From assembly GCA_021817145.1 (NCBI GenBank), contig JAKAVV010000010.1, positions 1-64,000 on the forward strand: a DNA stretch of 64,000 nucleotides, in the 5' to 3' direction. The stretch's first letter is position 1; every line of letters begins with the position of its first letter. The translations under genes were made by a program, and so were the position numbers. Shown here one piece after another: positions 18,472 through 55,335 of the stretch. Source of the DNA: a bacterium. GTDB taxonomy: Bacteria > Vulcanimicrobiota > JABDET01. The notes under the pieces were generated by a model, which saw only the letters and a program-made list of their open reading frames with translations, searched no databases and was not told the origin of the DNA.

Positions 18472-18723
18472 ATGAGAAAAATTTGGCAGCTTCAAGAAGC
18501 AAAAAATAAATTCAGCAGTGTGGTTGAACAGGCTCAAAGCGAAGGACCTCAAATCATTAGCAAACATGGAAAAGAAGCGGTGATTATTTTATCCATTGAA
18601 GATTATAGAAAAATCATGAAGCCTGAGGGAAATTTGTTTCAATTTATGCAGAAATCCCCTCTTCATGGCGTAGAACTGGATATTTCCAGAGATAAAACAG
18701 CTCCCAGAAATATTTCTTTATGA
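18472..18723 (+). CDS. Phd/YefM-type antitoxin
   Basis: MRKIWQLQEAKNKFSSVVEQAQSEGPQIISKHGKEAVIILSIEDYRKI. Confidence 0.88.
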   Translation: MRKIWQLQEAKNKFSSVVEQAQSEGPQIISKHGKEAVIILSIEDYRKIMKPEGNLFQFMQKSPLHGVELDISRDKTAPRNISL

Positions 18724-19139
18724 GATATCTCTTGGATACGTGTATTGTCTCAGAGCTGGTTAAAGTTTCTCCTGAAAAGAAAGTCGTAGATTGGATAATA
18801 CGTCATGATGAAGAAAATTATTATCTGTCTTCATTGACATTTGGGGAAATCTATAAAGGAATCTTTAAATTGCCGAGATCAAAGAGGAAAGAAAATCTTT
18901 ATCACTGGCTGGAGCATGAGCTAAAAGTGAGGTTTAAGGATCGAATTCTCTCTGTTGATTTGAACGTTGCCAGGATATGGGGAGAAATCCAAGGAGCATT
19001 AGAAGCGAAGGGCCAATTGCTCCCAGTGATCGATGGTCTTATCGCTGCCACAGGAGTGGCTTATGATTTAACGGTTGTTACTCGAAATACGGAAGATATG
19101 GAGTCCAGCGGAGTTTTGCTTTTTAACCCTTGGGATTGA
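18720..19139 (+). CDS. PIN-domain toxin (VapC/FitB-like)
   Basis: MRYLLDTCIVSELVK..., VIDGLIAATGVAYDLTVVTRNTEDM; overlaps antitoxin by 4 nt. Confidence 0.88.
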   Translation: MRYLLDTCIVSELVKVSPEKKVVDWIIRHDEENYYLSSLTFGEIYKGIFKLPRSKRKENLYHWLEHELKVRFKDRILSVDLNVARIWGEIQGALEAKGQLLPVIDGLIAATGVAYDLTVVTRNTEDMESSGVLLFNPWD

Positions 19140-19995
19140 GCAGCCCCTTTACAAAATAAACTTTATAAATTAAAGCCTGCCAGAAAGTAGATACTGGATG
19201 ATGGGGCTTCATTCGGGGTATTTTTCTGTTCACAATTGGGGCTAATAGTTTCCCTGGCAGTAGATTGAGTGGATGATACCCGCAGCTGAACCAGGTGCGG
19301 AGACAAGGATGTTTTTGATACAGTTTAGCAGCTGCTTTCCCATCAGCTAGCGCGGTTTCTGTCAACTGTGTTAAAGATGATTCTGGTTTCAGATGGAAAA
19401 CAACAGCAGGCAGGATGAATTTCATTTTCAGCCCCAGGCTCCTCAGTTTAAATCCAAGCTCAGCATCTTCCCATCTTTTGAAAGATTCGTCAAACAATCC
19501 CGCTTTTAAAAGCCGATCTTTTTTAACAGAAGCATTGCTGGTGCAGAAAAAGTTCATGGAGAAATCAGAAATTGAAGATTCTTTTATTGACAGATCTTTT
19601 GTTTTAACCTCCTCTAGAGATTTTACAATGACAACAGGTCCTCGAACAACGAACTCTTTCTTTTTATTCGCGTATTCGTGGGCTCTCCAGTGAAGATTGA
19701 GTAAATTAAAGGAAGGATAACAGTCATCATCTGTAAAAAGAATGACTTCGCCTCTGGCTTCTTTTATTCCAAGATTTCTGGCTTTTGCCGCTCCGCCATG
19801 CTGCTGATAAAAAGCGCGAAACTGAAAAGGGAATTTTTGCGATTCAAGCCAGCTTTTGGTCTCATCTGTTGATCCATCATCAATGACCAGAACTTCGAAA
19901 TCTTCTTCCTTAAAGGTTTGTTTGGACAAAGCTTTAAGTGTATTTTTCAAAAGCGAAAGACGGTTATAAGTTGGAATGACCACACTGATTTTCAT
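19123..19995 (-). CDS. Family 2 glycosyltransferase
   Basis: MKISVVIPTYNRLSLLKNTLKALSKQ, VLVIDDGSTDET, ILFTDDDCYP; start at 19995 preferred over 20097. Confidence 0.88.
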   Translation of the reverse strand: MKISVVIPTYNRLSLLKNTLKALSKQTFKEEDFEVLVIDDGSTDETKSWLESQKFPFQFRAFYQQHGGAAKARNLGIKEARGEVILFTDDDCYPSFNLLNLHWRAHEYANKKKEFVVRGPVVIVKSLEEVKTKDLSIKESSISDFSMNFFCTSNASVKKDRLLKAGLFDESFKRWEDAELGFKLRSLGLKMKFILPAVVFHLKPESSLTQLTETALADGKAAAKLYQKHPCLRTWFSCGYHPLNLLPGKLLAPIVNRKIPRMKPHHPVSTFWQALIYKVYFVKGLLNPKG

Positions 19996-20062
19996 CGCCT
20001 TATTTCCTATGCAGATTTTCTGTTTTGTTTTTATATTCCTCTTTAAACAAAGAATGATTCTT

Positions 20063-20373
20063 CTACGGGATTGTGAGTTTACCATGTGAAATCCCAAGAG
20101 AGCGCTGTACAGTTTGTTTCCATTCTTCTATAAGATTTTTAGGGAATTCTAAATATTCTGTTCCTTTTGCCCATTTCGCCAGACTCACACTGGCGATTTT
20201 GTTTAAACCTACTTGATTAAGAAGCAAGTCGCTTTATAGTGATCACGACCTGTCTGAGAGAGAATTTTTCCTGCTGTTGGAGCCCATTCAGGGGCTGTAG
20301 CAACTGCCGCTGTTCCAAGAGTAAGAGCCCCAGCAGTAATCTGGGGTCCACTTGTCGAGAATTTTGTCAGGTC
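20063..20373 (-). pseudogene. Frameshifted remnant of a secreted/polymorphic-toxin-like protein
   Basis: Minus strand encodes GPQITAGALTLGTAAVATAPEWAPTAGKILSQTGRDHYKATCFLIK*, then in a shifted frame SDLLLNQVGLNKIASVSLAKWAKGTEYLEFPKNLIEEWKQTVQRSLGISHGKLTIP*. Confidence 0.4.
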
Positions 20374-20934
20374 TCAGTCATTTGATTGAAAGACATCTTC
20401 CAGAACAAGAGAAAAACCAGGCAGCAGAGGGGATTCTAAAACTTGATTTCTCTTATATATCCCTTTCTCTTGAAAAAGTTCCCCTTCTAGAATAAACACA
20501 GAAATGGTTTCAGTGTCAGGATCCACGATCCAGTACTCTTTTACTCCATATTTTTCATAGATTGCTTTCTTTTTTACAGTATCCCGCTTCTTATCTCCAG
20601 AGGAAAGAATCTCAATCACAAGGTCAGGAGCTCCTTGAACATTGGCTTCTGTCAGGATTGATTTTCTTTCGTATGAGATGTAAAGGAGATCGGGCTGAAC
20701 AACATCATATTGAGATAAGACCACATCAAAAGGGGCATTATAGATTTCTCCACGCCGATTTTCTTCCACCCACTTTCCAATGGCAAATTCAATTCTCCAG
20801 GAAATTTTTTGATGTTTTCTGAAAGGGGAGGGGGACATTAGAAGTTCTCCATCCAGAACCTCTGCCCGAACTTCATCAGGGAGCTGACAGTAATCCTGAT
20901 AGGTGTATTTCTTTTTTTCATGAAGAACTCTCAT
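20374..20934 (-). CDS. Uma2 family (DUF820) putative endonuclease
   Basis: YTYQDYCQLPDEVRAEVLDGELLMSPSP, VQPDLLYIS, GAPDLVIEILSSGDKKRDTVKKKAIYEKYGVKEYWIVDPD. Confidence 0.9.
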   Translation of the reverse strand: MRVLHEKKKYTYQDYCQLPDEVRAEVLDGELLMSPSPFRKHQKISWRIEFAIGKWVEENRRGEIYNAPFDVVLSQYDVVQPDLLYISYERKSILTEANVQGAPDLVIEILSSGDKKRDTVKKKAIYEKYGVKEYWIVDPDTETISVFILEGELFQEKGIYKRNQVLESPLLPGFSLVLEDVFQSND

Positions 20935-21020
20935 TGGTTTTCATCTCCTTTCTATCTTAACAGGCCCTTGTCAAATATCTGTCAAATTTTCCACTTTATT
21001 CTTCTCTTATCTTATCATAA

Positions 21021-21284
21021 AAGAAATGGAAACTCAAGGGAAAAACAGGTTTTTTCCCCTACTGCAAAAATCAAAACGGATATTCCCCAACATCTCCACG
21101 GCGAGTAGAGGTTGATCCTAAAACAGGTGAGATCGTAGTTTTCGATAAAACACAGGGGAATATATATCATGGTCATGTGGTCAGCTGGAAAGGGTTGAAT
21201 GGACAAGTGAAAAAAGCTCTTGAGAAAGCAGGATTGGTTAACAGCCATGGAAAGTTTTGGTTAGGTGAGGAATGCAGCTTATGA
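21021..21284 (+). pseudogene. Truncated C-terminal toxin domain (polymorphic toxin type 17-like), no start codon
   Basis: Open frame without ATG encoding SPRRVEVDPKTGEIVVFDKTQGNIYHGHVVSWKGLNGQVKKALEKAGLVNSHGKFWLGEECSL*. Confidence 0.55.
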
Positions 21285-21480
21285 AAGATTAGGAAGTTTT
21301 ACCTATTTTGCGCCGTGAAGCCGAGCAGGCACTAAATTCTGAAAACCCTGACATTGTTGTTCCTCTCCTAGGCCAGATGTGAAACGACCCTGCCATTGGT
21401 GGGAGAGCAGAAGATACTCTCTCTTGAATTCCAGCCATCTCAAGGGAAGGAAATTGAAATGAGATATGGGAGGAAATAAT

Positions 21481-22035
21481 ATGGAGGCAGTAAACAAACA
21501 GAGTAGATTTCATTTTCTCAAAGAAGTCACCAACTCGATTTTACTCCAAAAGTTTTCCCTTTTTGTGAAAGATTTTATTGAAGAAGAAGGCTGGTATCTT
21601 AGACCAGAAGCAGTTAAATCCCGCGGATGGGAGATTGTTCCTGTTGAAAAAGGAAGGCATCTTGAGCCAGCGGAAATCGCTATTTTGGTAAAAGGTTTGG
21701 TAAAACACGGATATAGGAAATGTTATGCCCCAATGTTTATTGAAAAAATTGGAGACGATCCAGACTGCCTTGAGGTTCCGGTTACAGAGGAAGGATTAGA
21801 CGAGTTTTCTAGAAAACTCGCAGGTATCAACATCCCTCTTATTTCAGAAGATTGTTCTTTTATCCTTTTGTTCACCTCAGAAGAGTGGAATCTTTATGCG
21901 GGACAAAAGTCATTTATAGAGGATGTTCTTGGTAAAACGATCAAAGAAGCAAGAGCAGAATTTGATGAATTTGCATCGGATCTATATTGGGAAGGAAGAC
22001 TTGAAAAATTAGCAAACCGTTACAAATTTCTTTAG
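21481..22035 (+). CDS. Hypothetical protein, possible immunity protein for the upstream toxin remnant
   Basis: Intact 184-aa ORF with SD GGGAGG; position downstream of the toxin fragment; no recognised domain. Confidence 0.45.
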   Translation: MEAVNKQSRFHFLKEVTNSILLQKFSLFVKDFIEEEGWYLRPEAVKSRGWEIVPVEKGRHLEPAEIAILVKGLVKHGYRKCYAPMFIEKIGDDPDCLEVPVTEEGLDEFSRKLAGINIPLISEDCSFILLFTSEEWNLYAGQKSFIEDVLGKTIKEARAEFDEFASDLYWEGRLEKLANRYKFL

Positions 22036-22068
22036 AAGGCTGCAATTTGGCACATCAAGATTTGTTTA

Positions 22069-23805
22069 TCATTGTTGGGCAGCAAGGCTTATCCTTACAG
22101 TGGCGTTTTTGTATCCAAGAAGGATTAAGGCATGAGAAATATCCCTCGCCAATTTTTTTTCGTGGAAAGGTCCTATCCAAACCTGATAAACACGGGTTCC
22201 ATTGATTTGCGCTCTGGATATGGAGCTGTTGTACCCATTTGCATCCAGTTTTTTATGAAATTTATCAGCATGTATTAAGCTTTGAAACAATCCTACTTGC
22301 ACGATAAATAATTGAGAATTAGTTGTTTTTGAAACATGAATTTTCTTGTGAAGTTTAGATAAACCGAATGGTTGACTCAAAGAAGACAATTTCTTAACCT
22401 GGATGACTTTTACTTCATGAATATGCTCTGTATTGATATACCACTGATGATTCAACTTGATTAAGGATACAGCGCCCCTGTAAATTGCTGTCTGAAGGGA
22501 AGGAAATGGAATTTGAACAAGATCCTGAGATTTTAACAAAACAGACACTACTGACGAGTTAATATTATAAGAATAAACTTGATCGTTTTGCAATTGGACA
22601 TATATGTTTTGCGGGCTCACTGCCCAAATTTTATAAAAAGCGCTGTAAGGGTATGTATTGTCTTCCTGTGGATTTCTCAAATGATAGGCGGCTGCGTACC
22701 TATGTTTATCAAGGAGATCATAATATTCTTTAATAACATTTAATATTTGTCTTTGTTCTCTAGCAGTGTTTGGCATTTGTGTTTGGTTTTCCAGAGATGA
22801 TGACAACTTATTATGAGGAAACTGAAGATGCAATTTCTTACTCTTTTTTAAGGATTGGTGTTCTAATAAGGGTTGGTGTTCTAAAAAGAAAAACTTTGAT
22901 ATTATCATGGATATTATAACGAATAAAATAAAACTTAAACCAATAATTGTTTTTGGATTTTTAAAAAATAAAAATATTTTTTCTCGAAAAGTTTGAGGAT
23001 GTTTTAGATTTGCCTGTGTGTCAATTAATGCGGCTTGGCTGTCAGGATTTTCTGCAGGGAGCCGTTGAATAAGATCATTAGTTCCTGTGTTTTTTAATTC
23101 GACGCTGATTTTTTCATAAAGTTCTGGAAGCTGGATGTGGTGTAGGAGGAAAACTCCTGTTGCCTGTGCAAGCTGCTGTGCTGCAGTGGTATAAGAAGCT
23201 GTGCTTACAACACAGGCAAAGTCCGCTTTTTCGAATTCTCTTCCAGAAATGGCTTCTTGAACAGCATCATTACCAACAGGGTGAGAATATTTTTTGCATT
23301 GTAGAACAACTTTCAGACCATCACGTTTTGCAATGATATCAATCCCTTGATCACCTGATTTTCCTGTGGTTCTGACCTCCCACCCATTTTGTCTTAATAT
23401 GTCTGCGCAAAAATGTTCATATAAGGTAGGAGAAAAACTGGCTATGTCTTGATTTTCTATTTTTGGGGATACAGGAGATTCAGAATAATGTTCAATTAAC
23501 TTATCAACTAAAGAATATATCTCTGATCGAGAAATTTTTTGTTTTACAGGATCAATTTCTTTACAGATAACATTTTCAAAAAAATATTCTTTTTCATCAT
23601 CCCACTTTTTTGTAATGATATTACCATAAGGGTCAGTACCTATTAATTGCTTTTTTCTGGTCAAAAGAGTCTGGGAATGCTTAAGGATAATATCCTCTAT
23701 TTTCTTGCGAATATTTCGATTCTCTCTTTTTTTTAAAAGAAAAGGAATTGCTGCTAATGTAAACAACAACAACCCAATAATGAATAAGATGTACAGCGGA
23801 TGCAT
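22069..23805 (-). CDS. Membrane protein: N-terminal TM, Mrr-type restriction endonuclease domain, second TM, extracytoplasmic region, C-terminal SPOR domain
   Basis: Mrr core SPTLYEHFCADILRQNGWEVRTTGKSGDQGIDIIAKRDGLKVVLQCKKY; TM segments at residues about 4-24 and 286-304; SPOR-like LFIVQVGLFQSLIHADKFHKKLDANGYNSSISRAQINGTRVYQVWIGPF. Confidence 0.8.
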   Translation of the reverse strand: MHPLYILFIIGLLLFTLAAIPFLLKKRENRNIRKKIEDIILKHSQTLLTRKKQLIGTDPYGNIITKKWDDEKEYFFENVICKEIDPVKQKISRSEIYSLVDKLIEHYSESPVSPKIENQDIASFSPTLYEHFCADILRQNGWEVRTTGKSGDQGIDIIAKRDGLKVVLQCKKYSHPVGNDAVQEAISGREFEKADFACVVSTASYTTAAQQLAQATGVFLLHHIQLPELYEKISVELKNTGTNDLIQRLPAENPDSQAALIDTQANLKHPQTFREKIFLFFKNPKTIIGLSFILFVIISMIISKFFFLEHQPLLEHQSLKKSKKLHLQFPHNKLSSSLENQTQMPNTAREQRQILNVIKEYYDLLDKHRYAAAYHLRNPQEDNTYPYSAFYKIWAVSPQNIYVQLQNDQVYSYNINSSVVSVLLKSQDLVQIPFPSLQTAIYRGAVSLIKLNHQWYINTEHIHEVKVIQVKKLSSLSQPFGLSKLHKKIHVSKTTNSQLFIVQVGLFQSLIHADKFHKKLDANGYNSSISRAQINGTRVYQVWIGPFHEKKLARDISHALILLGYKNATVRISLAAQQ

Positions 23806-24037
23806 GATATTTATCTGTTTTATATAAGTGATTTTTTTTAAATTTTCTCAATTAACAATCTTTTCCCTTTTAAAGAAGTAACAATTATTACGTAGAAAAA
23901 CTTTTAGAAACAACAAACACGTATGATAGATTTTCATATTCATTAGAGCTATCGTTATAAGGCGAGACAAGATACTTATATGCTTCTTGTAGTAAAAGAT
24001 AAAGACGGGTTAGAAATTAGAAACAGTAGAGAATAAC

Positions 24038-24235
24038 ATGGCAAAGAGTGATTTTATCTGCAAGATTTGCAAAAAAGTAAAAGGGGCAAATTTTTTGTCT
24101 GGGAAAGGAAAATATAAGTGCCCAAAGCATAAAGACATCTGCGGAGATCATGTAACTTTATTTAATGGATGTAGGGAATGCAGTAGTAAAGTCATGGTTT
24201 ATAGATTTACAGGAAAACGCTGGGAAAAAGTGTAG
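24038..24235 (+). CDS. Small Cys-rich (putative zinc-binding) protein
   Basis: 65 aa, FICKICKKVKGANFLSGKGKYKCPKHKDICGDHVTLFNGCRECSSK; three CxxC/Cx4-6 clusters. Confidence 0.6.
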   Translation: MAKSDFICKICKKVKGANFLSGKGKYKCPKHKDICGDHVTLFNGCRECSSKVMVYRFTGKRWEKV

Positions 24236-24271
24236 CGGCTGAGCATTTAAAAAAGTAAAGGAGGAAAAATA

Positions 24272-24379
24272 ATGGCTGGAAAATCAAAGAGCAAGGGGAA
24301 ATCCTCCAAAAGCAAAAAATCTGGAATACTCGGTAAGTTTAAAAAGAAGGTGGGCCGTAAACTCCTGTTTGGAAAATAA
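24272..24379 (+). CDS. 35-aa strongly cationic peptide MAGKSKSKGKSSKSKKSGILGKFKKKVGRKLLFGK
   Basis: ATG with AAAGGAGG SD, 13 Lys and 1 Arg; not in the ORF track because it is below the length cut-off. Confidence 0.5.
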   Translation: MAGKSKSKGKSSKSKKSGILGKFKKKVGRKLLFGK

Positions 24380-24527
24380 GGCGCATTTTCCTAAATATGT
24401 GTGAGAGGGTATGAAAAACGAGCTTATCAAGTTTTTAGTTGAAACTGCCCTGGTTGGTCTTAGCTGTAGAGATTTAATTTGAGAGGGAATAAGGATTCCC
24501 TTTAGAGATATGTGGTGTTGGTGACCT

Positions 24528-24935
24528 TCATGATTTGAGTTGTGGCTTGATGATCAATGCTGCCTTGCTTGCCAATTGAACAGCAAATTTTAGGTCTTCC
24601 AGATCCTTTTCCTCCCAGCCTGTTATGTTGGCGTGGCGGTAGTGTCGCGTTGGTTCAGGTTTCACTTCAAGCTGCAGGTCAAGGGCATCCTGGCAGATCA
24701 GGTCTGCGCGTGCCTTTGTTTTGCGTCTTTCAGTTTCCACGTTCTCAACTGCAAGCTGCCAGATTTCATATTCTTGAAGGCTGTCAACTCTGTACACGGA
24801 TAGCTCATAGGGGGATTGCTTTGGTGGGATGAATGTCCCATACTTCACTCTGTTATTCAGGGATGAAAAATGACTGCTGGAAAAAATGAATCGTGATAAC
24901 TTCTCTGAGGGGGCAACTTGGGCGGGAAGAGACAT
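24528..24935 (-). CDS. Hypothetical protein, third gene of TIGR04255-like cassette
   Basis: 135-aa ORF, tightly spaced with the upstream gene. Confidence 0.6.
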   Translation of the reverse strand: MSLPAQVAPSEKLSRFIFSSSHFSSLNNRVKYGTFIPPKQSPYELSVYRVDSLQEYEIWQLAVENVETERRKTKARADLICQDALDLQLEVKPEPTRHYRHANITGWEEKDLEDLKFAVQLASKAALIIKPQLKS

Positions 24936-24938
24936 GTG

Positions 24939-25430
24939 CTAGTTCTTGAAGTGGTGGGCTAGGATTTGCATAGCGATTTCGGGGATTGTCATCCCCGCAG
25001 CACTTGTCCCGCTTATCTTCTTCCCGCTGCTTAACAGGGCGACATAATTCAATTTTCCTTCCCCGGATGGCTCTAACACGAAAGTTGAACCTTCGCGCGT
25101 GTGCCATTCTAGTCCTAGCCTTCCGACAGGCGTCGGGACAATTTCTGGAGTTTGAATCCATAGTGGAAGCTGCATGACAATCGTTATGATGGATTTTACT
25201 GCTTCCATGGAAATAGCCTTTGCCCCATAGCCATCCCATCCTTCGACCGAGCACTCACGGTAAACCTCTCCTATTTGTTGGAAAAAGTTTCGTTGCCAGA
25301 GGGTCCGTAGGCGCTCCCAAAGCAAAGACAATTCGCTCTCCAGTTTCTTTGACTGGTCGCTAAAGAATTGTACAGCAACGGGTCGCGCCATTTCGGCTGA
25401 AGGGGGAGGACTCAAGGTAAGCTGGCTCAT
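24939..25430 (-). CDS. Hypothetical protein with GWDGYGAKAI motif, second gene of cassette
   Basis: 163-aa ORF overlapping the upstream gene by 4 nt (ATGA). Confidence 0.65.
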   Translation of the reverse strand: MSQLTLSPPPSAEMARPVAVQFFSDQSKKLESELSLLWERLRTLWQRNFFQQIGEVYRECSVEGWDGYGAKAISMEAVKSIITIVMQLPLWIQTPEIVPTPVGRLGLEWHTREGSTFVLEPSGEGKLNYVALLSSGKKISGTSAAGMTIPEIAMQILAHHFKN

Positions 25431-26161
25431 CTATATTCCTCCACAGCTTTTTCTGTGATTATACCAAAGAATATATTATTTTTCAATACCCTAAACTTCT
25501 CCAAAAGTCCCCACAAATCTTTCTCGGATAAAGGGCTTGAGAAAAATTTAAAGATTTCGGTGTCAATGATAAGAGGCAATTTAACGGCATTTGGCGGAGG
25601 GGCGAGTGACAGGGTCAGCAGGGTTTCCACCCCTGTGCTTGGTTCCAGAAGCCGCTGCTGGTTCAGGAACGCGGTAAGATTGGACGGTCCTCCCTTAATC
25701 GCTTTGGGAGGGTTCTTGATGAAATCGGAGATCGGCAATCCAACGGGAATTTCAAGCAGATCGACGTAGCGGAGCGCCAACCTATTCAGGCTCTCAATTT
25801 TGCAACCCTCGCAGTAAATTTGCCACAACTTTCGCGCTGTATCCCTCAGCTTTTCCCATGTTTCGTAAGGTTTGAGGCGGCTAAAAGTAAACCCATTGAG
25901 CCGATATTGCACAACTTGACGCTCATCTTGGGAGAAGAACGAATACCCAACCGCATCGAAATTTGTGGCAGCTCCCAAGTCACCCTCCTTTTGACCGAAG
26001 CTTACTTGAAAGCGTGACATGGTTCGTTTGGTGGGAAAGTCAGCTCTGATCTTTTCGTGAAGGAGTTCCAGGGTTTTTGCATTCACGCCTGAACCAGGTG
26101 TTACGTTGATATCGATGAGCGCTTCTGTTATCGGAGATTTTCTAAGGTGAATTTTTTTCAC
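25427..26161 (-). CDS. TIGR04255 family protein
   Basis: LRKSPITEALIDINV..., RLNGFTFSRLKPYETWEKLRDTARKLW, LNRLALRYVDLLEIP. Confidence 0.75.
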   Translation of the reverse strand: MKKIHLRKSPITEALIDINVTPGSGVNAKTLELLHEKIRADFPTKRTMSRFQVSFGQKEGDLGAATNFDAVGYSFFSQDERQVVQYRLNGFTFSRLKPYETWEKLRDTARKLWQIYCEGCKIESLNRLALRYVDLLEIPVGLPISDFIKNPPKAIKGGPSNLTAFLNQQRLLEPSTGVETLLTLSLAPPPNAVKLPLIIDTEIFKFFSSPLSEKDLWGLLEKFRVLKNNIFFGIITEKAVEEYR

Positions 26162-26257
26162 TGCTTTGATAGTTACATCGGCAAGGAACTTTTCCTGCTA
26201 AAGCGCTCTTGATGTTATTCCCAAGCAATTATTTCATGGGTAAACTACCAAGCGAAA

Positions 26258-26535
26258 ATTTCACCCCCCTCTGGGTTTATACAAAGTATTGATTCCGAAT
26301 TCTGACAAGATTGACACAGACTGCTCCTGCTCCAGAGATCTCCTCCTCCGTGGTATTCATGAGATAACATGTTATTCCTGAAAATTCATGAATTACATGT
26401 TATTCAGTTAAACACAGGTACCCAGGGGTTTCCCGAAGGAATTGACTGCTGCGTGTATTCTGGCAATCATACCTTTCTGTATTTTTCGGGCTAAATTTAG
26501 GGAGGCGGGGTGGGGAGAAAAAAGGGGGGTGAAAT
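26258..26535. mobile_element. MITE-like non-coding element bounded by 13-bp perfect inverted repeats
   Basis: ATTTCACCCCCCT (26258-26270) and AGGGGGGTGAAAT (26523-26535); no ORF of note inside. Confidence 0.35.
26355..26412. repeat. Two degenerate 29-bp tandem copies, each containing ACATGTTATTC
   Basis: attcatgagataacatgttattcctgaaa / attcatgaattacatgttattcagttaaa. Confidence 0.6.
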
Positions 26536-26583
26536 AATCTCTTGCGAATGTAAAAGGGGAACTGAATCACCGCTTTCCTCCCT

Positions 26584-27606
26584 TTATTTTACCAGATCCA
26601 GGGCTGCTTCCACAATTTTTTGAGGTGAAAGAGCTTGATAGCATTTAAAATCCGAACAGGTTTCTTTCGTGCACCATGGTCTGCAGGGGAATTGGGAAGG
26701 GCGCGCAATTGCGCTTTTACCCCCCCATGGTTTCCATCGGTCAGGGAAATCTTTTTGCATGGCAAAGATCGCGACAACAGGGGTCCCTACTGCTGCAGCC
26801 AAATGCATGGGTCCGCTGTCAGGACAGATGACTACTTTCGCCTGCTTTAAAAGAGCGGCAAGAGTTTGAAAATCGGTTTTTCCGGCCAAAGAGAAGGCTG
26901 GCAGATTCATCTTTTTTATAACAGCTTCCACTAAAGGGATCTCTTTTTTGCTGCCTGTAAAGGCAACTTGAAATCCTGCTCTTGTGAGTTCATCCCCTAT
27001 GACTGCGAATAAATCAAGGGGCCATCCCCGATGGATCACATTTTCTCCTTTTCCGCAGTGGATGACAGCAGCGGGTTTTTGAGTATTCAGTCCGGATTCC
27101 TGCAGCAGTTTGGCTGTGTTTTCAATCGCTTTTTGAGTGGGATTAATGCGAATTTGTTTGTTGGTTGGCTCAAGTCCAAGAGAACGGGGGTAATCCAGCA
27201 GAATCTCCACCCAGTGTGTTTGAGTATCTCCTTGAGCAGAGCGAATCTTTACCTTATGGGTAAACAAAAAGGAGGAGAGGAAGCGGTCCCCTTGCCCAAT
27301 TCGAATCGGAATGCGATTGAGATATAAGAGCCAGGCGATTTTAGAGGTTGTCCATAAGCAGCAGGCGATTTTTATTTCGCCTTTTTTAACCTTATTCATT
27401 AGAAATTGTCCTGAGATAAAGCCGGCTTTTAAAGGAAGAGCTTCTTGAACAAAAGGGTGGGCTTTAATCACTTCTTCCAAGCCAGGAGGAGTGATATAAA
27501 CAATCGAGTGGTCTGGAAAAGCGTCGTGAAAGGTTTGGATCACAGGGTAAGAGAGAATTAAATCCCCCATTCCTCCATGAGGATGAAGAATCAAAATTTT
27601 ATTCAT
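26584..27606 (-). CDS. Family 9 glycosyltransferase (ADP-heptose:LPS heptosyltransferase-like)
   Basis: ILILHPHGGMGDLILSYPVIQTF, VICPDSGPMHLAAAVGTPVVAIF; start MNKILIL at 27606. Confidence 0.88.
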   Translation of the reverse strand: MNKILILHPHGGMGDLILSYPVIQTFHDAFPDHSIVYITPPGLEEVIKAHPFVQEALPLKAGFISGQFLMNKVKKGEIKIACCLWTTSKIAWLLYLNRIPIRIGQGDRFLSSFLFTHKVKIRSAQGDTQTHWVEILLDYPRSLGLEPTNKQIRINPTQKAIENTAKLLQESGLNTQKPAAVIHCGKGENVIHRGWPLDLFAVIGDELTRAGFQVAFTGSKKEIPLVEAVIKKMNLPAFSLAGKTDFQTLAALLKQAKVVICPDSGPMHLAAAVGTPVVAIFAMQKDFPDRWKPWGGKSAIARPSQFPCRPWCTKETCSDFKCYQALSPQKIVEAALDLVK

Positions 27607-28816
27607 GTTGAATTCTCGCAAGAATTTCCGCTGCTCCAGGCTTAAAATCCTGATATAAAACTTTAAGTTTCTCTCGTATCCACTCTCTTTTCTTTTGGTT
27701 CTGCAGCAGATCAATAAGGGCATCAGCTGTTTTTTCAGGGGTTAACTTTTCCACCAGTTCAGGAACAATTTGTTCTTTTGCCCAAAGATTGGGCTGGGCA
27801 GTGAACTTTAATTCTGGCAGATAGCTCAGCAAAATGAACCTTTTCAGCATTTTTCCGACAAATGGTATTTTTTCAATCAAATAAGGGATTCCTGGATAAG
27901 GGATCTCTTCAGGACGATTGGTTGGCAGAGTGACCAGCATAGGGGTTCCTAAAAATCCTGCTTCAGCGCATTTGGTTCCAGGGATGGTTAGAATACAGTC
28001 AGATTGTTTCATAAGGGAATAAGAATGCCCTTGTTCAACAAGAATTTCCGCTCCTCGAGCTGTTAAGATGAATTTTTGCTTTCCGTTTTCAACTAAAATC
28101 CCAGAACTGGATTCTAAAATGTGCTTTCTATCTTTATCAATCACAAAACAGATCTCTTCATCTTCTATAAAAGGGGAAAGAGATAAGTAAAAGGTTGTGT
28201 CAGGGAGATTTTGCTTCGTGATCTCAGCGACTTTCAAATAAAATGGCAGGATGTGTTTCAGTTCTGCCATTCTGCTCCCAGGGAAAAGAGAAACGAGATA
28301 ACCTTTTTTCTCTAATGATAAATTTTCCGTTCCAGAAAGTTCCAGTTGGACAGCGTCTAAAACGAGATCTCCTGTAATATGGATTTTTTTTTCTGGAATT
28401 TTTCTGCTGATTAATAATTGTTTTTGTTTTTCATGAGGAACGAAATATTCCTGGAAAGCTGAATCCCATCTTTTTTCCCCCCATTGATAGGCGTAATTTT
28501 TCGTTTTTAATCTTTTCGCCAGCAGAAAAGCGTAAAAAAGATCCCCTCCTAAATGAATGACGATTGGTTTTTTCGGAGAGAAATTTTCGGGTTTTCTGCC
28601 TAGAAAAAGATACTGCAGAGAAGTTTTAGGAGAATATACAAACTGGATCCCTATTTGCTCTCGCGCGATTTTCTCTTCTTTTCCTGTGGCATAAGCGCAG
28701 GGGAGCAGAAAGAGGGAAAAGATCGTTTCTGGCTTTTGTTTTCGAATCGTTTGCACCAGGGGATTGATCCATCCCCAAAGCTCACCCGGACTGTTTCCTG
28801 TTAGAACAATTTCCAT
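27599..28816 (-). CDS. Lipid-A-disaccharide synthase-like glycosyltransferase (LpxB family)
   Basis: TGNSPGELWGWINPLV, LFPGSRMAELKHILPFYL, CILTIPGTKCAEAGFLGTPMLV. Confidence 0.75.
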   Translation of the reverse strand: MEIVLTGNSPGELWGWINPLVQTIRKQKPETIFSLFLLPCAYATGKEEKIAREQIGIQFVYSPKTSLQYLFLGRKPENFSPKKPIVIHLGGDLFYAFLLAKRLKTKNYAYQWGEKRWDSAFQEYFVPHEKQKQLLISRKIPEKKIHITGDLVLDAVQLELSGTENLSLEKKGYLVSLFPGSRMAELKHILPFYLKVAEITKQNLPDTTFYLSLSPFIEDEEICFVIDKDRKHILESSSGILVENGKQKFILTARGAEILVEQGHSYSLMKQSDCILTIPGTKCAEAGFLGTPMLVTLPTNRPEEIPYPGIPYLIEKIPFVGKMLKRFILLSYLPELKFTAQPNLWAKEQIVPELVEKLTPEKTADALIDLLQNQKKREWIREKLKVLYQDFKPGAAEILARIQHE

Positions 28817-53981: not shown

Positions 53982-55216
53982 TTCGGATTAGTAATCAAAC
54001 TCTTGTGAATAATGCTGTTTTCAATATTGATCAAGAGATGGCTAACCTTGCCCAAACCCAGGAGGTCCTTTCAACAGGGAAATCTGTGAATCAGCCTTCT
54101 GACAACCCCTCAGCTTTTGCCCAAATTTTAAGCTTTTTGAATGAGCAGAACCAGAATCAAGCTTATCAGAGCAATGTTACCAGCGCCCAGGGGTTGAATC
54201 AGACCACACAGTCCGCTCTTCAATCTCTGCAGAACATTTTACAGCAGGCTGGATCTCTTTATACAGAAGGGGAAAATGGAGCTCTTTCAGCCCAGGATAG
54301 ACAGAATATTGCGACTCAAATAGGACAATTGATTCAACAAGCTGTTGGAATTGCTAATACGAATTTTAATGGACAGTATATTTTTTCGGGAAGTAATACT
54401 CAAACAGCTCCTTTTGTGTATAATGGAAATTCTGTGACTTATCAGGGGAATAATGCGGTTTTAACTCTGCCTGTTGGAAATGGAGAAAACATACAGACTA
54501 ATCTCCCGGGAAGTGAAGCTCTTTTAGGTGGGTCTAAACCCTATGGCAATATTTTCCAAACCTTAATTAATATTCAGCAGTCCTTCCAAAATTCCCAAAC
54601 TTCGAGTTTAATGGGGATCAATAATCCTCCTTATACAGTGAACCCCGCTGCTTCTATCAATTCTCAATTGGGGAATTTTGCCACTCCTCCTATTGTGAAC
54701 GCAAATTTAAGTTTTCAGATTGATGGAGTTACGATTAATTACAGCACAGCAGCAGGAGGGGACAGCGTCAATTCGATTATCGCCGCGATTAATACGAATC
54801 CTTCCCTTTCAGGAGTTGTAAAAGCCAGCTTTGATCCAACCACTCAACAGATTTCCATACAATCTTTAAATGGTAAACTGATTGATCTTCAAGATGTTCC
54901 AAATTCAACATCAGGAATAACTGGAAATTTTACGCAGTTTATGCAGCTGCAGGGGAATCTTACTCAAATTCAAGCTGCTCAGCAGTTAATTAATAATAAT
55001 GAAGCCATTGTTGGCTCTTTGTCCAATCGTTTAACCCAGGTTCAGACCAGTTTGCAGAATCAGAGCAGCAGTTTTACCCAGGCAATCTCTAATCTGCAGG
55101 CTGCCAACGTTCCACAAGAGATTACCACTTTGAGTTTGCAGCAGACAGCCCTTCAGGCTGCGCTGCAAACCAGTTCTATTGTGCTGCAGCAGACGAATTT
55201 ATTTAACTTTTTGTAA
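53978..55216 (+). CDS. flgL: Flagellar hook-associated protein FlgL
   Basis: MIRISNQTLVNNAVFNIDQEMANLAQTQEVLSTGKSVNQPSDNPSAFAQILSF, GQYIFSGSNTQTAPF. Confidence 0.95.
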   Translation: MIRISNQTLVNNAVFNIDQEMANLAQTQEVLSTGKSVNQPSDNPSAFAQILSFLNEQNQNQAYQSNVTSAQGLNQTTQSALQSLQNILQQAGSLYTEGENGALSAQDRQNIATQIGQLIQQAVGIANTNFNGQYIFSGSNTQTAPFVYNGNSVTYQGNNAVLTLPVGNGENIQTNLPGSEALLGGSKPYGNIFQTLINIQQSFQNSQTSSLMGINNPPYTVNPAASINSQLGNFATPPIVNANLSFQIDGVTINYSTAAGGDSVNSIIAAINTNPSLSGVVKASFDPTTQQISIQSLNGKLIDLQDVPNSTSGITGNFTQFMQLQGNLTQIQAAQQLINNNEAIVGSLSNRLTQVQTSLQNQSSSFTQAISNLQAANVPQEITTLSLQQTALQAALQTSSIVLQQTNLFNFL

Positions 55217-55281
55217 GGATTGACATCCGTGCCAATCCTTGTTTGGAGAGGTGGTCGGTCATCCTGACCTCCAATCCAAAC
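55215..55281 (+). promoter_or_regulatory. Two tandem hairpins between flgL and fliW
   Basis: AAGGATTG(55215-55222)/CAATCCTT(55233-55240) and GTTTGGA(55241-55247)/TCCAAAC(55275-55281). Confidence 0.5.
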
Positions 55282-55335
55282 CCAAATAACGAAATGAGTG
55301 ATACAAATTATGAGTAATAAAAAAGGAGGCGCATT

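Follow-up and report, generated by a model that had tools for sequence, protein, structure and literature searches.

The window, the whole 64,000-nucleotide stretch of DNA that was analysed, carries on its minus strand at 22069..23805 a single intact open reading frame with an ATG start, which encodes a protein of 578 aa. In 200 trials on random 64-kb sequence of the same composition the longest open frame had a mean of 129 codons and a maximum of 191, and a frame of 578 codons is therefore far above chance. Based on Pfam, hydropathy and AlphaFold2, the protein consists of a first transmembrane segment (TM1, residues 4-24, 23734..23796), a helical region (residues 30-115, 23461..23718), an Mrr_cat nuclease domain (residues 122-230, 23116..23442), a second transmembrane segment (TM2, about residues 284-304, 22894..22956), an NTF2-like segment (residues 347-472, 22390..22767) and a SPOR domain (residues 496-569, 22099..22320), all encoded on the minus strand. 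The single frame, the domains and their borders agreed well with the sequence-only reading, in which the strand had not been given. The G+C content of the gene was low (0.346 vs. 0.417 for the window). A 189-aa orphan ORF at 21466-22035 converges with the Mrr-SPOR gene, with the two stop codons 33 bases apart, and matched no family in Pfam, NCBIfam, PADLOC or PHROGs.

The Mrr_cat domain was assigned by a Pfam profile search (PF04471, residues 122-228) with an E-value of 1.5e-25 and 90 bits against a curated cut-off of 21. The listed residues of the domain are E130, D152, D156, Q169 and K171, and of these the PD-(D/E/Q)xK residues D156, Q169 and K171 were invariant or nearly so in alignment A2. 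A Foldseek search with the head model matched 1y88, MspJI (4f0p), archaeal Holliday junction resolvases and AspBHI (4oc8). MspJI and AspBHI, which the head resembles, are modification-dependent restriction endonucleases (REases). Residues 30-240 belong to an REase subfamily that extends past the Mrr domain into the helical region with its YGN...W..E signature (YGN...W..E...F in alignments A1/A2). Members of this subfamily are frequent in Alphaproteobacteria and Gammaproteobacteria and sporadic in other groups (308 genome stretches, of which 80 were read), and further ones were found in 52 plasmid records and on 95 viral contigs. In many of them hydropathy shows one or two N-terminal transmembrane segments. 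Membrane-anchored Mrr_cat REases of Methylobacterium, Microvirga, Acetobacteraceae and Methylococcaceae (L016, L017, L024-L103) share the transmembrane segment, the YGN/W..E region and the Mrr_cat domain with the window protein, at about 32-44% identity over residues 30-240, but they stop some 9 aa beyond Mrr, whereas the window protein adds TM2, the NTF2-like segment and SPOR. In this subfamily Mrr normally ends the protein: about 190 further Mrr ORFs were collected, with a median of 9 residues between Mrr and the stop codon. The best defence-library match of the head was the Mrr domain of ZorD (1.3e-17), and PDC-S02 and type IV REase models were also matched, by the head and by its relatives. 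The ZorD match mostly mirrors shared Mrr ancestry, and the number of defence-model matches is partly due to Mrr homology alone. The head can be classified as a member of a widespread accessory, restriction-like and often membrane-anchored REase subfamily and is a predicted DNase.

The SPOR domain likewise scored above its curated cut-off of 21 (PF05036, residues 497-560, E-value 1.8e-7, 31.8 bits with the full protein; 36.4 bits when searched alone), which confirmed both domain calls of the sequence-only reading. The FtsN equivalog TIGR02223 of NCBIfam was matched with 22.1 bits, below its cut-off of 107.65. The AlphaFold2 model, for which 31 sequences were used as input, contained a SPOR-like b-a-b-b-a unit at residues 502-562 in a part of moderate confidence. 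The top six Foldseek matches of this tail model were solved SPOR domains (best E-value 2.5e-3, probability 1.00), and the proteins represented were CwlC, DedD, RlpA, DamX and FtsN. Q503 and F507 sit at the positions of RlpA Q270 and F274, which are conserved glycan contacts (PMC6895207); R531 and R538 lie near the basic-patch (NAM-contacting) site in an alignment that is too loose for assignment. SPOR domains bind glycan that is stripped of peptides and enriched at septa (PMC6895207), and the SPOR domain of the 578-aa protein is predicted to bind denuded glycan and to target the septum. FtsN, DamX, DedD and RlpA also combine a transmembrane or lipid anchor with a C-terminal SPOR domain with conserved Q and F, but carry division or wall-enzyme parts and have no nuclease. 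The own genome encodes three SPOR proteins, two with the shared tail described below and a third that is a TM-SPOR protein, as well as two Amidase_3 proteins that could make denuded glycan. A genome of the same genus (G001) has the third of these SPOR proteins, but neither the head nor the shared tail.

For the segment between TM2 and SPOR the proposed NTF2-like fold (residues 353-470) has support below curated thresholds: the window protein had no Pfam match here, and the assignment comes from sub-threshold matches of relatives. One of these (L146) matched MecA_N 'NTF2-like' at an E-value of 0.0018; this family, the best match of the relatives, stayed below the cut-off, which supports but does not prove an NTF2-like domain. 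Profile matches of the segment (alignment A4, seven sequences) were RsgI9 and PBP5 with E-values of 0.06-0.25, and its model was of low confidence. Distant relatives of the tail's middle part occur in other genomes (22-26% identity; L145, L146, L147, L150 and L153); in these the same kind of domain stands C-terminally after a transmembrane segment, with neither SPOR nor nuclease. Their heads include a zinc-ribbon and, on visual inspection, the last part of a protein-kinase-like domain. In L153, L146, L147 and L150 the C-terminal domain is found on transmembrane proteins that also have zinc-ribbon, TPR/FG-GAP and, by eye, kinase-like parts.

Hydropathy analysis (threshold 1.6) detected exactly two transmembrane segments, at residues 6-24 (mean 2.84) and around residues 280-303; the best window of the latter, 280-298, reached 1.62 and was barely above the threshold. 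AlphaFold2 predicted a long helix at residues 3-42 (pLDDT about 90), a confident Mrr head (pLDDT mostly >85) and a helix at residues 284-308, and both membrane segments named earlier (about 4-24 and about 286-304) were recovered. The linkers around TM2 were mostly unstructured (pLDDT <50 at 260-271 and 308-345). The charged stretch KKRENRNIRKK follows TM1 and REKIFLFFKNPK precedes TM2. As these charges fit the positive-inside rule, the N-terminus of TM1 would face out, the nuclease would be cytoplasmic and the tail periplasmic, in line with the topology first suggested. The host has an outer membrane, as judged by LpxB-like, heptosyltransferase, LptA-like and YadA-like genes in the window (partly by inspection). 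The C-terminal part of a YadA-like trimeric autotransporter at 591-1469 lies beside the LptA-like gene (1510-2334), both recognised by inspection.

The tail from TM2 to SPOR (residues 267-578, 22072..23007, minus strand) recurs in the own genome on contig C30 (246-1154) behind a different, incomplete head. Over window 22156-22558 the two copies are identical (403 bases), and their match ends about one base beyond the stop codon. Their first halves have diverged: non-synonymous change amounts to 12% in residues 267-340, and neither copy contains a frameshift or a stop. The combination of 403 identical bases and a diverged first part suggests that the tail was duplicated or exchanged and that its second half was then gene-converted. 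The dN/dS of the duplicated tail was about 0.6 overall and about 0.3 in residues 341-415, which points to weak constraint. The C30 gene (1-1157, L002/L015) is truncated in its head, as the contig begins inside it; this head had no Pfam match and, besides contig C13, only marginal matches in relatives (E-values 0.005-0.007). On C13, a stretch with 82% identity to the C30 linker stands behind a transmembrane segment and a J-domain (PF00226, E-value 2.1e-7) in a broken gene, and the homology of this relic to the tail family stops at the start of TM2. Parts of a single tail family have therefore become attached to at least two and probably three heads in the own genome. Since the C30 copy has another head and its linker also follows the C13 J-domain, the tail looks like an exchangeable envelope module. 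The broken TM-J-domain gene with its C30-type Pro/Ser-rich linker (C13:3400-3970, L014) shares its short contig with transposase genes. Synteny of the C30 locus with G001 resumes only at a Nudix gene, at about 2.3 kb; in G001 it stops at this gene and no tail is present at that position. The window has short dispersed repeats in common with C13 (31-128 and 26494-26539, 84-90% identical), and 77 bases at 55210-55286 are 81% identical to C30:2178-2254, probably as a dispersed repeat.

The Mrr-SPOR gene lies in a hypervariable interval (20098..26583) bounded by a glycosyltransferase gene (19123-20097) and a heptosyltransferase gene (26584-27723). The flanks, dnaX-recR-glycosyltransferase and heptosyltransferase-nuo, are syntenic in G001, where the interval holds unrelated genes instead, among them genes for small nucleotidyltransferases such as occur in toxin-antitoxin pairs. 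Because of this replacement the Mrr-SPOR gene is an accessory gene. The interval of the sister species (L137, G001:C30:22000-38000) contains, at 3.9-10.7 kb, two genes for small nucleotidyltransferases and one retropepsin-like ORF, and is a hotspot of integration or turnover. In the window the interval also holds a Uma2 gene and a TIGR04255-family gene, and no recognisable partner gene was found among the flanking genes. The TIGR04255-family gene belongs to a three-gene group at 24528-26161, of which the two small genes match the defence candidate PDC-M32 only weakly. A Phd/VapC toxin-antitoxin pair (18472-19139) lies between recR and the glycosyltransferase gene, just outside the interval, and is absent there in G001.

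The domain combination, which had been called unusual, had no second example among the head relatives and genomes searched. An NTF2-like or SPOR tail was found in none of about 190 other head-subfamily ORFs, with profiles built from few sequences that distant tails could escape. Searches of 388 genomes with the NTF2-like segment and of 198 with the full protein gave no other example of the fusion, and the genome contig, plasmid, phage and viral-contig collections searched contained no full-length homologue. In 149 genomes of the phylum the tail search returned only the two copies of the own genome and ordinary SPOR proteins. No description of an Mrr-SPOR or nuclease-SPOR fusion was found in the part of the literature that was searched. 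A phage origin was rejected, as phage records encode the Mrr part at most and a viral-contig scan with the full protein was empty. Two TM-Mrr-TM-tail proteins of the phylum (L005 and L004) were discarded as relatives of the fusion, their tails being disordered or absent and not SPOR. The PADLOC matches of the tail (PD-T4-6 and PDC-M16B) were weak and judged to be chance. New with respect to the sequence-only reading are the duplication of the tail on another head, the head subfamily that normally ends at Mrr and the variable accessory setting.

In function the closest parallel is type I Zorya (ZorAB with ZorCD), which also brings a peptidoglycan-binding periplasmic part, a membrane part and an Mrr-like nuclease domain together at the envelope. 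Defence by Zorya requires that its periplasmic ZorB binds peptidoglycan, and this binding brings nucleases to where the phage attacks; the Mrr-like domain is part of ZorD (PMC11890865). The window protein differs in being a single chain with no MotA/MotB-like motor and no helicase. No ZorA, ZorB or ZorC gene was recognised among the adjacent genes scanned, and as the motor genes are missing there, the gene is not a Zorya member; the mechanism considered most likely resembles a one-chain counterpart of that system.

We tentatively favour the reading that the protein is a membrane-tethered Mrr DNase that is concentrated by SPOR at denuded wall and cuts invader DNA. At its simplest it would be a restriction-type nuclease that the wall positions within the membrane. 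A restriction-like membrane-tethered Mrr nuclease would have gained a peptidoglycan-binding tail, with the nuclease kept at the cytoplasmic side of the inner membrane by TM1 and TM2. Displayed by the NTF2-like domain, the SPOR domain would bind the peptide-stripped glycan that septal amidases produce, so that the enzyme would accumulate where the cell divides and where wall is otherwise remodelled. Here the nuclease could cut foreign, possibly modified phage or plasmid, DNA near its entry point at the envelope. This reading is backed by the domains, motifs and fold, the presence of the head subfamily on plasmids and viral contigs, the type IV REase and defence-model matches, the retained SPOR contacts Q503 and F507, the two Amidase_3 proteins and the further TM-SPOR protein, the hypervariable interval with its Uma2 and TIGR04255 genes and the Phd/VapC pair just outside it, and the precedent of Zorya. 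Against it stand the occurrence of the fusion in one genome only, the weak constraint on the duplicated tail, the lack of a recognisable partner among the flanking genes and the fact that the SPOR proteins known to date work in division or morphogenesis (PMC6895207).

The fusion may be a recent chance product, and it is a real if rather unlikely alternative that recombination added a copy of the tail from a division-type or J-domain protein to an already existing TM-Mrr gene, with the fusion expressed but under no selected function. The single genome, the near-identical tail elsewhere in it, the broken same-family relative on a transposase-flanked contig and the low G+C would fit such a by-product. 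However, 578 codons are in frame with all motifs kept, and the diverged first tail halves without frameshift or stop indicate that the arrangement is not brand new. Unlikely as well is a sensor of wall damage, in which the SPOR and NTF2-like parts would sense abnormal denuded glycan upon phage entry or lysis and switch on the nuclease, killing cell or invader. The NTF2-like relatives, with the domain C-terminally behind a transmembrane segment and cytoplasmic zinc-ribbon or kinase-like (by eye) heads, have the layout of transmembrane sensors, and detection by Zorya is proposed to need peptidoglycan binding (PMC11890865). Yet there is no obvious signalling helix, the linkers around TM2 are mostly unstructured, and a simple switch would misfire, as all dividing cells contain denuded glycan.

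A housekeeping nuclease that cuts trapped DNA at the septum, for chromosome clearance or as a division checkpoint, is distinctly improbable. Septal targeting by SPOR domains (PMC6895207) and a nuclease that faces the cytoplasm by hydropathy and model would suit this function, but it predicts conservation, whereas the gene is absent from G001 (98% complete) and the head family is plasmid- and virus-borne. The position in a variable accessory interval favours defence over septal DNA clearance. Hardly credible, finally, is an assembly or binning artefact that joined two genes: the genome is a single draft of 42 contigs and repeats the tail, but the only repeat of a length that could confuse assembly (403 bp) does not reach beyond the shared tail, and a wrong join within it could not yield the fusion. 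The junction from Mrr to TM2 and the first half of the tail are copy-specific and run without a break in one 88-kb contig, and synteny with the sister species holds on both its flanks, which makes misassembly unlikely; of the earlier concern about a single-genome misassembly, what stands is that the fusion is found in one genome only.

A bolder reading is a one-chain, peptidoglycan-gated nuclease, a counterpart of Zorya with an exchangeable tail that the own genome also places on other heads, in which SPOR on the outside would sense denuded or damaged wall and license Mrr on the inside; we consider this quite unlikely. A SPOR-nuclease would be a first link between the SPOR address tag and DNA cleavage. 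It would offer a single-gene means to test whether septal or wall-damage placement of a nuclease improves defence, and the occurrence of one tail behind different heads hints at a modular 'envelope address' that can be attached to cytoplasmic effectors in evolution.
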